From contig REBP01000096.1 of assembly GCA_007692665.1 (NCBI GenBank), forward strand, positions 1 through 48,917: a DNA stretch of 48,917 nucleotides, given 5' to 3'. Numbering within the stretch: position 1 is the stretch's first letter; each line of letters begins with the position of its first letter. The DNA comes from Gemmatimonadales bacterium (lineage in GTDB: Bacteria; Gemmatimonadota; Gemmatimonadetes; Longimicrobiales; Gaopeijiaceae). Shown piece by piece: positions 31,342 to 35,958 of this stretch. The notes below the pieces were generated by a model. The model was not told the origin of the DNA. It saw nothing but the letters and a program-made list of their open reading frames with translations, and did no database searches. The position numbers were made by a program, and so were the translations under genes.

Positions 31342-33639
31342 ATGTCCGCGACCTCGACCTCCCCCGCCCCCCGGACTCACCGGGCCACGAAGCCTTCCGA
31401 GCCGGGGCTGGGCATGGTCCCGCACCTCCTGGGGACGGCCGTGGCGATTCATGCGCTTGCGACCTTCCTCATGGTCCACTCGGCGCGGCAGACCCAGTTC
31501 GGCAACCTCCTCTTCATGGTGCTGGAGCTGCCCCACGGCCAGGCGATGCAGGTGGAGAAGATCACGGTCTCGATCTTCCTGGCCCTCGCCGTGGTGAGCG
31601 CGCTCCGGCCTCGCCTCCTGACCCTCCTCCCGGTGGGTGCCTACGTCCTGCTGGAGGCCTGGTCGGCGTTCCACCAGGGAGGCGACCGTTTCAGCGAGTG
31701 GACGCCGGCGGCGCACGCGCTTCGGTGGGTGACGCCCTTCGCGCTGGCCCTGCTCGCCGCGCCCGTCCTGGCATCCCGGGTCCCCGCGTCGATCCGGCGT
31801 GCAGGTGCCGGATGGATGCTCCGCCTGGCCGTGGCCACGGTCTTCGTGATCCACGGTCTCGAGTGCCTGTGGGGATATCCGCGTTTCGCCGACCTCATCA
31901 TCGGGTCGGCCCGGGGGGTGCTGGACGTGCGGGTCTCCGAAGCCCTGGCCCTCCAGGTCATGCAGGTGATCGGGATCGTGGACCTGGCCGTGGCCGCCGC
32001 CATCGTGGTGCGCCCCTGGCGGACGGTCCTGGTCTGGGCGGCCTTCTGGGGCGGGATCACCGCCCTTTCCCGGGTTCTGGCGCTGGGGCCCGGCGCGTAC
32101 TTCGAAGTGCTGCTCCGGGCCTCCCACGTCCTCGCCCCCCTCGCCCTGATCCCACTCCTCCACCCCGGGACCGCCCGGATCCTCCCCCGGCTTCCCGGCC
32201 GGTTCTCTCCCTCCCGACCTCCCCCGGACTTCTCGACCATGACACCTCTTCCCGAATCCATGGTGGCCCGCGGCACCCGCGACAGCCGCAGCACCCGCAG
32301 CACCCCTGGCAGCGGCAGCACCCGCACTCGCCGCGCCCTCCCCCTGATCCTGCTGGCGCTTCTCCCCGCCCTGGCACTCCCGGGCGCAGCGCCGGCCTCG
32401 GCCCAGGAGACGATCCGCCCTCTCCCGGCCTCGGCAAAGCCCCAGCACCTCCGCATCCTCTTCGAGGAGAAGCCGGCGACGGAAGCCGTGGTTTCCTGGA
32501 CAACCACGGTCCCCGGGACCCACCACGTCGTCCATTTCGACACCGAGCCCAGGCACGGCGACACGGAAGCCTATGCCAGGCAGACGACCCGGATCGTGAG
32601 CGGCGCCTGGACCCTCCTTCCCACGGAGTCCGAGATGGCGGCCTGGTACCACCACGCCCCCCTCACCGGGCTCGAGCCCGCCACGACCTACTACCTCACG
32701 GTGGAAACCGATGGCGAAACGCTGGGAGAGTACCACTTCATCACGGCGCCGGATGACGACCGCGAGGTGGCGCTCCTGGTGGGCGGCGACTCCCGCGTGG
32801 GCGAGGACCGGGTGCACCCCGGGAACATGCGGCGGCGCATGAACGCCCGCATGCGCATGCTTCTCGAGACCAACCCCCACGTGCTGGCGCTGGCCCACAC
32901 CGCAGACTACACGAACCGGGCCTACTGGTCGGAGCTGTACCACTGGCTGAACGACCATTTCGAGATGACCACCACCGCCGACGGGCGCCTCCTCCCCATG
33001 CTTCCCTCCAGGGGGAACCACGACCTCGACGTGGGCTTCGAGGAGATGTTTCACTGGCCCGGCCGCGCGACCGATTTCTACTACGCCAGCCAGCTCAATG
33101 CCGGCAGCGTCTTCATCGCGCTGAACACCGAGATCAGCCGCAGCGGCGACCAGCAGGACTGGCTCGCCGCCACGCTCGAGCGGGTGCGCCCGGCGAACCG
33201 CTGGGTCGGCGCCTTCTTTCACCGGCCGGCCTATCCGAGCGTCCGGGCCTTCGACTCCGGCGAGCCGCAGCGGCGCGCCTGGGTGCCCCTCTTCGAACGC
33301 TACGGCCTGGACCTGGTGGCGGTGGGTCACGACCACGCACTCAAGCGGACCGTCCCGATCCTCGAGGGTCAGGCGAATCCCCGGGGGATCGTGTACATCG
33401 GCGACGGTGGGCTGGGCGTGCGTCCCCGCGAAGTCGCCACGGATCGCTGGTACATCAACGGGGGAGGGATCAGCCAGAGCGTGCACAATGTCCACCTGAT
33501 CGAGTTCGGTACCGATGCGCTCCATGTCCGGGCCTTCGGCATGGGAGGCGAAGTGCTGGACGAACTCCTGATCCCGGCAGACCGCGGCCTCCGGCTGCGG
33601 CAGTACGACGCCCTGCTCCGGCGGGCCGCGGACCGGTAG
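31342..33639 (+). CDS. Fusion of a DoxX-like membrane domain and an exported metallophosphatase
   Basis: 765 residues in one open frame. Residues 1-290 hold about eight hydrophobic helices (VPHLLGTAVAIHALATFLMV, FALALLAAPVLASRVP, DLAVAAAIVVRPWRTVLVWA), DoxX-like in feel but not firmly assigned. At residue 300 an internal Met (32239) begins a segment that looks like a second gene start, with its own signal peptide (ALPLILLALLPALALPGAAP) and ASAQ. Then a fibronectin-like domain and a purple-acid-phosphatase-like domain: GGDSR (D483), HTADY (D522), GNHD (N559, H560), FFHRP (H627) and GHDH (H663, H665). The metal site is intact. Either a fused protein or two tandem genes that lost a stop. Confidence 0.75.
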   Translation: MSATSTSPAPRTHRATKPSEPGLGMVPHLLGTAVAIHALATFLMVHSARQTQFGNLLFMVLELPHGQAMQVEKITVSIFLALAVVSALRPRLLTLLPVGAYVLLEAWSAFHQGGDRFSEWTPAAHALRWVTPFALALLAAPVLASRVPASIRRAGAGWMLRLAVATVFVIHGLECLWGYPRFADLIIGSARGVLDVRVSEALALQVMQVIGIVDLAVAAAIVVRPWRTVLVWAAFWGGITALSRVLALGPGAYFEVLLRASHVLAPLALIPLLHPGTARILPRLPGRFSPSRPPPDFSTMTPLPESMVARGTRDSRSTRSTPGSGSTRTRRALPLILLALLPALALPGAAPASAQETIRPLPASAKPQHLRILFEEKPATEAVVSWTTTVPGTHHVVHFDTEPRHGDTEAYARQTTRIVSGAWTLLPTESEMAAWYHHAPLTGLEPATTYYLTVETDGETLGEYHFITAPDDDREVALLVGGDSRVGEDRVHPGNMRRRMNARMRMLLETNPHVLALAHTADYTNRAYWSELYHWLNDHFEMTTTADGRLLPMLPSRGNHDLDVGFEEMFHWPGRATDFYYASQLNAGSVFIALNTEISRSGDQQDWLAATLERVRPANRWVGAFFHRPAYPSVRAFDSGEPQRRAWVPLFERYGLDLVAVGHDHALKRTVPILEGQANPRGIVYIGDGGLGVRPREVATDRWYINGGGISQSVHNVHLIEFGTDALHVRAFGMGGEVLDELLIPADRGLRLRQYDALLRRAADR

Positions 33640-33641
33640 TC

Positions 33642-33671
33642 TTGACGACTCCGACCTCTCTTCCCTAGAAT
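33642..33671 (+). promoter_or_regulatory. Near-consensus promoter driving the Cys leader
   Basis: TTGACG (33642-33647) and TAGAAT (33666-33671) are separated by 18 bases, the best match to a housekeeping promoter seen in the window. The start point would fall near 33678, the A of the leader ATG, implying a leaderless transcript. Confidence 0.8.
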
Positions 33672-33677
33672 CTGCGC

Positions 33678-33833
33678 ATGAACCGTCCGGACCACCCCCT
33701 CTCGCTCCGCAGCGCGCCCTCCGCCGGCGCCGCTGCCGGAGGCCACATGTGCATGTGCTGCTGCATGCCGATCTCCTGTTCCGGGAGAGAGGTGGCCGGA
33801 CGTTCCTGTGCCCGTGGCGGAGACCCCATGTAG
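33678..33833 (+). CDS. Cysteine-rich leader peptide of an attenuator
   Basis: 51 codons from ATG 33678 to TAG 33831-33833. Codons 23-31 read H-M-C-M-C-C-C-M-P, and further Cys codons are 34 and 44, six in all; four Cys and three Met fall within seven codons. The ORF starts at the predicted transcription start with no ribosome site, so it would be translated leaderless. A perfect terminator follows, then the ATP-grasp and monooxygenase genes. The layout is that of a ribosome-mediated attenuator that senses charged tRNA-Cys (perhaps also tRNA-Met). The peptide itself probably has no function. Polycysteine leaderless ORFs are known to regulate sulfur genes in actinobacteria. Confidence 0.75.
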   Translation: MNRPDHPLSLRSAPSAGAAAGGHMCMCCCMPISCSGREVAGRSCARGGDPM

Positions 33834-33905
33834 TCCTCCAGGCTCCCGACCCACGGTTCGCAGCGCCTCCAGCGGCCCCCTCTCCATCGACGAGAGGGGG
33901 CCGCT
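33741..33905 (+). promoter_or_regulatory. Four-segment transcription attenuator
   Basis: Segment 1, GGCCAC (33741-33746), just before the Cys codons, pairs with GTGGCC (33792-33797) in segment 2. Segment 2, GAGAGGTGGCCG (33787-33798), pairs at 11 of 12 positions with segment 3, CGGCCCCCTCTC (33873-33884). Segments 3 and 4 form the terminator. A ribosome stalled at codons 25-29 would cover segment 1, free segment 2 and allow the antiterminator. Confidence 0.7.
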
Positions 33906-33911
33906 TTTTTT
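33871..33911 (+). terminator. Perfect intrinsic terminator between leader and operon
   Basis: AGCGGCCCCCTCTC (33871-33884), loop CATCGAC, GAGAGGGGGCCGCT (33892-33905), then an uninterrupted run of seven T (33905-33911). It lies 26 bases before the ATP-grasp ATG at 33938, so it must be bypassed for the operon to be expressed. Confidence 0.92.
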
Positions 33912-33937
33912 CGTTCCCCGCACACCTCGAGAGACCC

Positions 33938-34906
33938 ATGGCACAGGACACCCCCACCCTCGGCATCTACTTCGAACACCCGGACTGGTTCAGGCCCCTC
34001 TTCGCGGAGCTGGACCGCAGGGGTCTTCCCTGGGATGCGATTCCCGCAGCGGGACACAGCTTCGATCCCGCGGAACGCACCCCGTCCCACCCCGTGGTGC
34101 TGAACCGCATGAGCCCGTCGGCGTGGCTCCGGGACGGACCGTCGCAGATCTTCCACACCACGCCCTGGCTGGAGCACCTCGAGGGGCTCGGGGCGCGCGT
34201 CATCAACGGGTCGCGGGCCTGGGGCTTCGAGGTGTCGAAGGCCGCCCAGCTCTCGCTGCTCCGGAAGCTCGGGCTCCCCTTTCCCCCGGCACGGGCGATC
34301 CACGACGCGAGCGCACTTCCCGCACGTGCGGCGGAGCTTCGGTTCCCGGTGGTCGTGAAACCCAACGTGGGCGGGAGCGGCGCGGGCGTCGTACGCTTCG
34401 ATTCGCCCGAGGCCCTGGCGGCCGCCGTGGCCCTCGGCGGAATCGATCTCGGGATCGACGGCACGGGACTGATCCAGGAGTTCATCCCGGCGCGGGACGG
34501 GCGCATCGTCCGGGTGGAAGTCCTGAACGGCCGCGTGCTCTATGCCATTCGCATCTACAGCTCGGGCGACGTCTTCAACCTCTGCCCCGCCGACGTCTGC
34601 CAGGGCGTCGACGGCGCGGCACTCGCACGGGCGGCGTGCCCTGCCGACGCGCCCGTGAACGACCTTCGGGTGGAGGCGTACACCCCCCCGGAGTCCGTGA
34701 CGCGGGACGTGGAACGCATCATGGCCGCCGCCGGCATCGAGGTGGGAGGGGTCGAGTACCTGGTCGATGACCGGGACGGACAGCTCTGCTACTACGACGT
34801 GAACGCGCTCTCGAACTTCGTGGCCGACGGTGAACGGGTCCTGGGCTTCGATCCCTTCGCGCGGCTGGTGGACTGGCTCGAGGCTGAACTCCGGGGGGTC
34901 GCATGA
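33938..34906 (+). CDS. ATP-grasp ligase, RimK/glutathione-synthase-like
   Basis: 322 residues from ATG 33938, with GAGAGA just upstream. An N-terminal pre-ATP-grasp domain (LGIYFEHPDWFRPLFAELDR) leads to the ATP-grasp fold: FEVSKAAQLSLLRKLGLPFP, FPVVVKPNVGGSGAGVVRFD with K141, LIQEFIPARDGRIVRVEVLN, and the metal-binding YYDVNALSNF (D287, N289). Such enzymes join an amine or thiol to a carboxylate using ATP, as in RimK and glutathione synthase. Its substrate is unknown. It overlaps the flavin monooxygenase by four bases (ATGA) and is controlled by the Cys attenuator, which suggests a role in thiol or organosulfur metabolism. Confidence 0.82.
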   Translation: MAQDTPTLGIYFEHPDWFRPLFAELDRRGLPWDAIPAAGHSFDPAERTPSHPVVLNRMSPSAWLRDGPSQIFHTTPWLEHLEGLGARVINGSRAWGFEVSKAAQLSLLRKLGLPFPPARAIHDASALPARAAELRFPVVVKPNVGGSGAGVVRFDSPEALAAAVALGGIDLGIDGTGLIQEFIPARDGRIVRVEVLNGRVLYAIRIYSSGDVFNLCPADVCQGVDGAALARAACPADAPVNDLRVEAYTPPESVTRDVERIMAAAGIEVGGVEYLVDDRDGQLCYYDVNALSNFVADGERVLGFDPFARLVDWLEAELRGVA

Positions 34907-35958
34907 GATACGGCTACTGGCTCCCCATGTTCGGCGGCTGGCTCCGGAACGTGGAGGACGAGGGAATGGAGGCCTCGTGGGACTACGTGAGCCGCCTGGC
35001 CCGCCGGAGCGAGGAGATCGGGTTCGACCTGACCCTCCTGGCCGAACTGAACCTGAACGACATCAAGGGGATGGAAGCGCCCTCCCTCGATGCGTGGAGC
35101 ACCGCCGCGGCGCTGGCCGCGGTGACGAAGCGCCTGGAACTCATGGTTGCGGTCCGCCCGACCTTTCACGAGCCGGCGCTGCTGGCCAAGCAGGCGGCGA
35201 ACATCGACCGTATCAGCGGCGGGAGGCTCTCGCTGAACGTGGTTTCGTCCTGGTGGGCCACCGAGGCGAAGAAGTACGGGATCGGGTTCGACACCCACGA
35301 CGCGCGCTACGACCGCACGGCGGAGTGGCTCCAGGTGGTCAAGGGCATGTGGACCCAGCCGGAGTTCTCCTTCGAGGGCCGGTTCTACCAGGTCGACGGG
35401 GGAATCCTGGAACCCAAGCCCCTTCAGCGGCCGCACCCCACCCTGTACGCCGGGGGCGAGTCACCGGCAGGCCGCGCGGTGATCGCCGAACACTGCGACG
35501 CCTGGCTCACCCACGGGGATCCGCCCGACCTCATCCTTCCGAAGGTGGCCGACATGGCGGCGCGGCGGCGGGACCTCGGGCTGCCGCCGCTCCGGTTCGG
35601 CGCCGCCGGCTACGTGGTGGTGCGCTCCACCGACGCCGAGGTGCGGCGCGAGGTCGAGCGCATCACCGACGTACGCCAGAACGCCCGCGGCTTCGCCAAC
35701 TACCAGGACTGGGTCCAGAACACGAAGATGGACCGCGCCGTGAGTCTCAAGGACTACTCCGTGTCGAACCGGGGCCTCCGGTCGGGGCTCATGGGCACGC
35801 CCGACGAGGTGGCAGACCGGATCCGCAGCTTCGAGGAGATCGGCCTGGACCTGCTGCTCCTCCAGTTCAGCCCCCAGCACGAGGAGATGGAGCGGTTCGC
35901 CGAGGAGGTGATGCCGCTGGTCGGAACCTCCGCTCCCCGGCTGGGGGCCACGGGCTGA
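34903..35958 (+). CDS. Luciferase-like flavin-dependent monooxygenase (SsuD/SfnG-like)
   Basis: 351 residues. Bacterial-luciferase fold: MRYGYWLPMFGGWLRNVEDE, IGFDLTLLAELNLNDI, LAAVTKRLELMVAVRPTFHE, PALLAKQAANIDRISGGRLS, LNVVSSWWATEAKKYGIGFD, HDARYDRTAEWLQVVKGMW and SPAGRAVIAEHCDAWLTHGD. These match the FMNH2-dependent sulfonate and sulfone monooxygenase branch (SsuD, SfnG), though a strict assignment needs a tree. Those enzymes release sulfite or sulfinate as a sulfur source. Translational coupling to the ATP-grasp gene and Cys-leader control fit a sulfur-scavenging role. The TGA lies in a hairpin shared with the next, convergent gene. Confidence 0.85.
   Translation: MRYGYWLPMFGGWLRNVEDEGMEASWDYVSRLARRSEEIGFDLTLLAELNLNDIKGMEAPSLDAWSTAAALAAVTKRLELMVAVRPTFHEPALLAKQAANIDRISGGRLSLNVVSSWWATEAKKYGIGFDTHDARYDRTAEWLQVVKGMWTQPEFSFEGRFYQVDGGILEPKPLQRPHPTLYAGGESPAGRAVIAEHCDAWLTHGDPPDLILPKVADMAARRRDLGLPPLRFGAAGYVVVRSTDAEVRREVERITDVRQNARGFANYQDWVQNTKMDRAVSLKDYSVSNRGLRSGLMGTPDEVADRIRSFEEIGLDLLLLQFSPQHEEMERFAEEVMPLVGTSAPRLGATG

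Follow-up and report, generated by a model that had tools for sequence, protein, structure and literature searches.

Cysteine leaders of actinobacteria are free of terminators and carry their cysteine codons close to the stop codon (PMC1262725); according to Canestrari (2020), as cited in PMC13236596, they act through translation. Another system, uORFC-8-2, described in 2021 in Rhodobacterales, is a short open reading frame (ORF) with cysteine codons located before cysS, with a terminator ending in a run of U, for which transcription attenuation was proposed (PMC8632094). The element considered here lies in a stretch of 48,917 nt from a Gemmatimonadales bacterium (assembly GCA_007692665.1, contig REBP01000096.1, positions 1 to 48,917), referred to below as the window, and very probably works by ribosome-mediated transcription attenuation, sensing charged Cys-tRNA and switching on the operon behind it at cysteine shortage. 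The operon encodes an ATP-grasp protein and a luciferase-like monooxygenase (LLM), and its host belongs to Gemmatimonadota, a bacterial phylum of soils and lakes. The in silico analysis of anatomy, conservation, covariation, alternative folds and sulfur gene context makes a cysteine-responsive, probably leaderless transcription attenuator a well-supported reading of this element; from these data we also infer the transcription start, the stalling of the ribosome, cysteine as the signal and what the enzymes do.

All features of the locus are on the forward strand. The promoter TTGACG-N18-TAGAAT (TTGACG at 33642-33647, TAGAAT at 33666-33671) has its -10 box 6 nt upstream of the start codon (ATG) of a leader ORF with 51 codons (MNRPDHPLSLRSAPSAGAAAGGHMCMCCCMPISCSGREVAGRSCARGGDPM, 33678-33833), and relatives have cysteine leaders at the equivalent site. 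Codons 24-30 (33747-33767) read Met-Cys-Met-Cys-Cys-Cys-Met, with the cysteine codons at 33750, 33756, 33759 and 33762; the run sits in mid-ORF, and another 22 codons follow it before the ORF ends. A local hairpin (33772-33788) formed by TCTCC at 33772-33776 and GGAGA at 33784-33788 stands immediately 3' of the cysteine codons and is followed by segment 2, the antiterminator strand GAGAGGTGGCCG at 33787-33798, which is still within the ORF. Segment 3 (33871-33884) is both the partner of segment 2 and the 5' arm of an intrinsic terminator, whose other arm, segment 4 (33892-33905), makes 14 perfect pairs with it (-31.4 kcal/mol) and runs into seven T at 33905-33911, so that segment 4 and the U tract together occupy 33892-33911. 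The stop codon of the leader precedes the terminator by 37 nt. Segments 2 and 3 pair at 11 of 12 positions (33787-33798 with 33873-33884), which is equalled by about 7 of 1000 shuffles (p = 0.007), and the fold of the leader RNA is 5.4 standard deviations more stable than dinucleotide shuffles. The ATP-grasp gene (33938-34906, 322 amino acids, RimK-type domain) and the LLM gene (34903-35958, 351 amino acids) follow and overlap at an ATGA junction. The promoter, the ORF with its MCMCCCM run, the 2:3 pairing, the terminator and the two coupled genes had all been described in a first-pass annotation of this DNA and were recovered at the same positions. A search of the window leader against Rfam gave no family above threshold. 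The sequence ATGTGYTGYTGY occurs in three copies in the window's own genome, only one of which, the one at this locus, has a leader-like setting.

The conservation of this arrangement was examined in upstream regions taken from the genomes of relatives and read in operon orientation, which gave 107 oriented Gemmatimonadota loci. A cysteine leader was accepted under strict criteria when at least four Cys fell within eight codons and a -10 box lay 4-10 nt before the start or, alternatively, when at least three Cys fell within eight codons and both promoter boxes were present. Such a leader heads the operon in 39 of the 107 loci, and a terminator accompanies it in 33 of these 39, as opposed to 19 of the 68 other loci (Fisher p = 2e-8, relatedness not corrected). 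Weaker cysteine leaders, recognized by eye, add L012, L014, L018, L021 and L023 to the strict set. When both strands of 80 loci (at most 11 kb each) were scanned for the combination of a cysteine-rich short ORF, a promoter at its ATG and a terminator, matches were found only at the head of the operon. The comparison of 5' regions of relatives, which the first-pass annotation had named as the check on its proposal, found the cysteine run, the antiterminator and the terminator kept in many of them, with compensatory changes. The leader peptides themselves are unconserved outside the cysteine run, and the parts they share follow the RNA pairing. The ATP-grasp gene is present in 119 of 395 genomes of the phylum; a distant paralogue (28-31% identity) with no adjacent LLM gene also has a cysteine leader and a terminator (L031, reverse strand; L032, 1270-2394), which indicates that the attenuator tracks the ATP-grasp family and not only the LLM pair. 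A wider regulon with cysteine leaders at genes of the cysH/cysK type was considered and dropped, as the same triple was absent from the 189 kb scanned around such loci.

Recurrence of this kind bears on the terminator itself. The gene upstream of the promoter (31342-33639) encodes a 765-amino-acid protein in which a long hydrophobic N-terminal part, with no Pfam match, is fused to a metallophosphoesterase resembling purple acid phosphatases. With the end of that gene so close, at 33639, the terminator might be thought to serve the phosphoesterase transcript, the cysteine ORF being incidental; the cysteine leader, antiterminator and terminator recur, however, beside different or divergent upstream genes, which contradicts this explanation and leaves it with hardly any probability.

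Because the alignment of full leaders by MAFFT/RNAalifold misplaced the stems, the stems were tested by position, by shuffling and by sub-family instead of with a covariance model. In the nine-member sub-family f7 the local hairpin and the terminator together reach a covariation score of 0.380, against 0.211 (standard deviation 0.024) in shuffles, none of 500 of which equalled it, and they score at most 0.13 when slid. The local hairpin of f7 contains the last cysteine codon, and TGC/TGT switches there together with G/A in the pairing partner. The f7 antiterminator covaries less (0.288 against 0.222, standard deviation 0.028; 4 of 500 shuffles). The equivalent local hairpin of f1-f3 has 94% of its cells paired, compared with 76% when the arms are shuffled, a result favoured by the anchoring of these stems by hand.

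Folding models assign the segments their roles. The first-pass annotation took as segment 1 the motif GGCCAC beside the cysteine codons, to be paired with GTGGCC in segment 2. The letters are in place (GGCCAC at 33741-33746, GTGGCC at 33792-33797), but in all modelled states the probability that GGCCAC pairs with segment 2 is zero, and the assignment is doubtful because the first codons of the leader (33680-33696) pair with segment 2 more strongly. According to the models, the strong competitor for segment 2 is this 5' end of the ORF, a candidate segment 1 or anti-antiterminator, together with the conserved local hairpin after the cysteine codons: when no ribosome is present, 33680-33696 is expected to form about 16.6 pairs around segment 2, its partner being 33790-33804, against 0.08 if covered. 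In nascent RNA extending to 33885, with a ribosome on the cysteine codons and the 5' end of the ORF covered, the 2:3 pairing rises to 11.9 expected pairs; it requires cover on the first ~17 nt of the ORF besides the ribosome on the cysteine codons. Placing the ribosome on segment 2 or on the stop codon lets the modelled terminator form (13.9 of 14 pairs). Across 35 loci, folds in which a stalled ribosome and everything upstream of it were masked gave at least six 2:3 pairs in 31, as compared with 10 without a ribosome; the masked folds averaged 9.0 such pairs, a mean that falls to 4.3 when the spacer is shuffled, and for 22 of the 35 loci one stalled ribosome is already enough in the model. 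In 34 of these loci the antiterminator strand, defined as the sequence that pairs best with segment 3, begins between -6 and +28 nt from the last cysteine codon, a range in which shuffles also place it about 40% of the time.

The mechanism suggested by these folds would proceed as follows. Transcription would begin at or adjacent to the leader ATG, and a 70S ribosome would consequently initiate on the extreme 5' end of the transcript. With ample cysteine, either the ribosome would translate past the cysteine codons and across segment 2, or segment 2 would be held in pairing by the 5' end and the local hairpin; segments 3 and 4 would then form the terminator, and RNA polymerase would halt ahead of the operon. 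With Cys-tRNA scarce, a ribosome would stall on MCMCCCM and cover the local hairpin's 5' arm; later ribosomes, on the ~80 nt upstream of the stalled one, would cover the 5' segment and so release segment 2. The freed segment 2 would bind segment 3, leaving the terminator unable to form, and the ATP-grasp protein and the LLM, in relatives also an SsuE-like flavin mononucleotide (FMN) reductase and cysteine synthase, would be expressed for sulfur acquisition. A stricter form of this mechanism would be a two-input switch, in which antitermination needs the ribosome stalled on the cysteine codons and, in addition, at least one further ribosome at the 5' end, either waiting in a queue or freshly bound; the two inputs would follow from the leaderless state of the mRNA, in which the first codons of the leader double as the anti-antiterminator. 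We hold this form to be rather unlikely. Were it true, the device would read Cys-tRNA plus initiation or ribosome queueing, and would be off when translation is globally weak.

Several observations count against attenuation as outlined above. Under the strict criteria 68 of the 107 loci are without a leader, and 6 of the 39 loci with one are without a terminator; locus L067 and the Bacteroidota loci also lack the full set. In the window at equilibrium a single stalled ribosome is insufficient, since the uncovered 5' segment keeps segment 2. The local hairpin is, in single sequences, no better than shuffles at 70% GC, and segment 3 of the same locus differs only modestly from foreign ones as a partner (mean rank fraction 0.30, with 0.5 expected by chance). 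The cysteine leaders lacking an obvious terminator, in L067 and Bacteroidota, also bring to mind translational attenuation or Rho-dependent termination in the style of mycobacteria, whose leaderless polycysteine ORFs work terminator-free (PMC1262725; Canestrari 2020, as cited in PMC13236596), in which case the hairpin at 33871-33911 would not be the control point. Such control is improbable for this operon, given that 33 of the 39 strict-leader loci have a strong terminator, U tract included, that this terminator covaries, and that the antiterminator strand adjoins the cysteine codons.

The promoter TTGACG-N18-TAGAAT is the sole sigma-70-like match in 4 kb, where 0.3 are expected from shuffles, and as its -10 box is only 6 nt from the ATG, the transcript of the window leader probably starts at the ATG, i.e., it is leaderless; a promoter at the ATG leaves no space for a Shine-Dalgarno site. 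Most relatives have TANNNT 4-10 nt 5' of where the leader begins, and a TTG box suitably spaced from it. In the window's own genome the pattern TTGAC-N18-20-TANNNT-N4-9-ATG has 17 matches, compared with 1 in a reversed control, a hint that leaderless mRNAs may be common in this lineage. Several of these 17 sites precede plausible genes. The spacing in relatives and the genome-wide pattern lend support to leaderless initiation.

The ATP-grasp protein matches PF08443 (RimK) with 29.7 bits, above the Pfam gathering cut-off of 21, and scores below the cut-off of every NCBIfam model. Three cysteines are invariant in its family (C216, C221 and C234, motif LCPADxCQ...C) and may form a catalytic or metal site; solved structures are found only among remote relatives of the family. 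The first-pass annotation had set the LLM beside SsuD/SfnG-type enzymes, which serve sulfur scavenging; with 245.4 bits against SfnG (TIGR04021, cut-off 382.95), the nearest curated model, and 183.7 bits against SsuD (TIGR03565, cut-off 518.2), it scores well under both cut-offs and neither name is applicable. Its closest PDB chain, 3rao, is uncharacterized. The pair is kept together in Gemmatimonadota, Acidobacteria and Bacteroidota and in single metagenome-assembled genomes of other phyla.

The neighbours of the operon, together with the riboswitches that precede it in some relatives, point to sulfur metabolism as its likely setting. A cysteine synthase gene is present in or beside the operon in L033, L036, L099 and L109; that of L033 overlaps the LLM gene (CysK score 428.6, cut-off 350.95). 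In other loci a gene for an SsuE-like FMN reductase (148.6 bits, cut-off 164.05) stands directly 5' of the ATP-grasp gene, and where it heads the operon the cysteine leader precedes it. The metH gene is divergent from the operon in L033, L034, L104 and L109. S-adenosylmethionine (SAM)-II aptamers, all in operon orientation, were found at 23 loci without a cysteine leader, some of the matches exceeding Rfam's gathering threshold (36 bits) and the others reaching down to 27 bits; those 5' of the ATP-grasp gene (SAM_alpha) include L137:641-715, L158:390-464 and L176:568-641, as well as L143, L165, L177, L191 and others. No SAM-II aptamer was detected in the 20 cysteine-leader loci searched. On the minus strand of L159, at 278-353, there is a second SAM-II aptamer, a strong one with 60.6 bits, which faces the gene divergent from the operon. 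Rfam matches place a SAM-I aptamer at three Bacteroidota loci of the same operon (L063, L071 and L075). The arrangement there is SAM-I, then a short cysteine ORF, then the ATP-grasp/LLM operon (L063:4499-4720, L071:4442-4657, L075:4544-4754 and L087:4490-4703, the SAM-I of L087 being alike by eye); the start codon of the short ORF is ~10 nt or less from SAM-I, and the cysteine run is C-terminal, e.g., CCCCCCC-stop.

When mapped on a tree built from 89 ATP-grasp proteins, the cysteine leader requires 9 changes (30 when shuffled) and SAM-II 3 (20.5 when shuffled), SAM-II being confined to one clade with one cysteine-leader group nested inside. SAM-II is found in 0 of 22 cysteine-leader loci and in 23 of 57 others, an exclusion that is not independent evidence because the tree requires only two changes between both states. 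The RNA controls are thus passed on with the operon, with about two exchanges on the best tree.

This gene context also bears on the nature of the short ORF. Clusters for peptide natural products do contain ATP-grasp and LLM enzymes, and the ATP-grasp protein weakly matches TIGR04187 (ATP-grasp ribosomal peptide maturase; 18.4 bits, cut-off 350), so that the cysteine-rich ORF could be imagined as the precursor of a ribosomally synthesized and post-translationally modified peptide, or as a metal-binding peptide, modified by the two enzymes. Yet the peptides have only the cysteine run in common apart from what tracks RNA pairing, a terminator separates the ORF from the enzymes in 33 of 39 loci, SAM riboswitches substitute for the ORF in relatives that retain the ATP-grasp gene, and the enzymes associate with cysK and FMN reductase; we consider a peptide product very improbable.

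If the element is a cysteine attenuator, the sulfur supply of a large and almost unstudied phylum becomes readable, and an uncharacterized, widely conserved ATP-grasp/LLM pair is tied to cysteine limitation. One operon would be subject, among relatives, to at least three RNA controls, namely the cysteine attenuator, the SAM-II riboswitch and the SAM-I riboswitch with a polycysteine ORF, and the locus would offer a natural test case for attenuation on an mRNA without a 5' untranslated region. The first-pass annotation judged that a leaderless, transcription-attenuating cysteine leader outside actinobacteria, with an ATP-grasp partner, looks new; as a type, however, cysteine-codon transcription attenuation beyond actinobacteria had already been predicted with uORFC-8-2 of the Rhodobacterales cysS (PMC8632094). 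A literature search, which did not cover subscription papers, returned nothing on cysteine leaders in Gemmatimonadota or on the ATP-grasp/LLM pair in sulfur metabolism; this operon, this phylum and the combination of a leaderless start with an intrinsic terminator look undescribed.

With attenuators of the trp/his type the element shares a leader ORF with regulatory codons, a segment 2 common to competing pairings, a 2:3 antiterminator, a 3:4 intrinsic terminator and downstream genes of matching metabolism. It differs from them in its cysteine codons, in the promoter at the ATG, in an ORF that runs through segment 2 and ends shortly before the terminator, and in that the 5' end of the ORF is what competes most strongly for segment 2. 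The LLM has the fold of the SfnG/SsuD/MsuD monooxygenases, and some relatives of the operon add an FMN reductase partner. Cysteine codons in a short ORF, a terminator with a U run and proposed transcription attenuation are common to the element and uORFC-8-2; the latter has two tandem cysteine codons within the first stem, cysS downstream and an alphaproteobacterial host (PMC8632094), whereas here four clustered cysteine codons precede an ATP-grasp/LLM operon in Gemmatimonadota, with a promoter of the leaderless kind. Mycobacteria and other actinobacteria have polycysteine ORFs with a leaderless start, which for the element is probable; these ORFs share with it the cysteine run and the location of a short ORF 5' of sulfur genes. 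In contrast to the mycobacterial ORFs, the element has a strong terminator and a cysteine run located mid-ORF, 22 codons before the stop.

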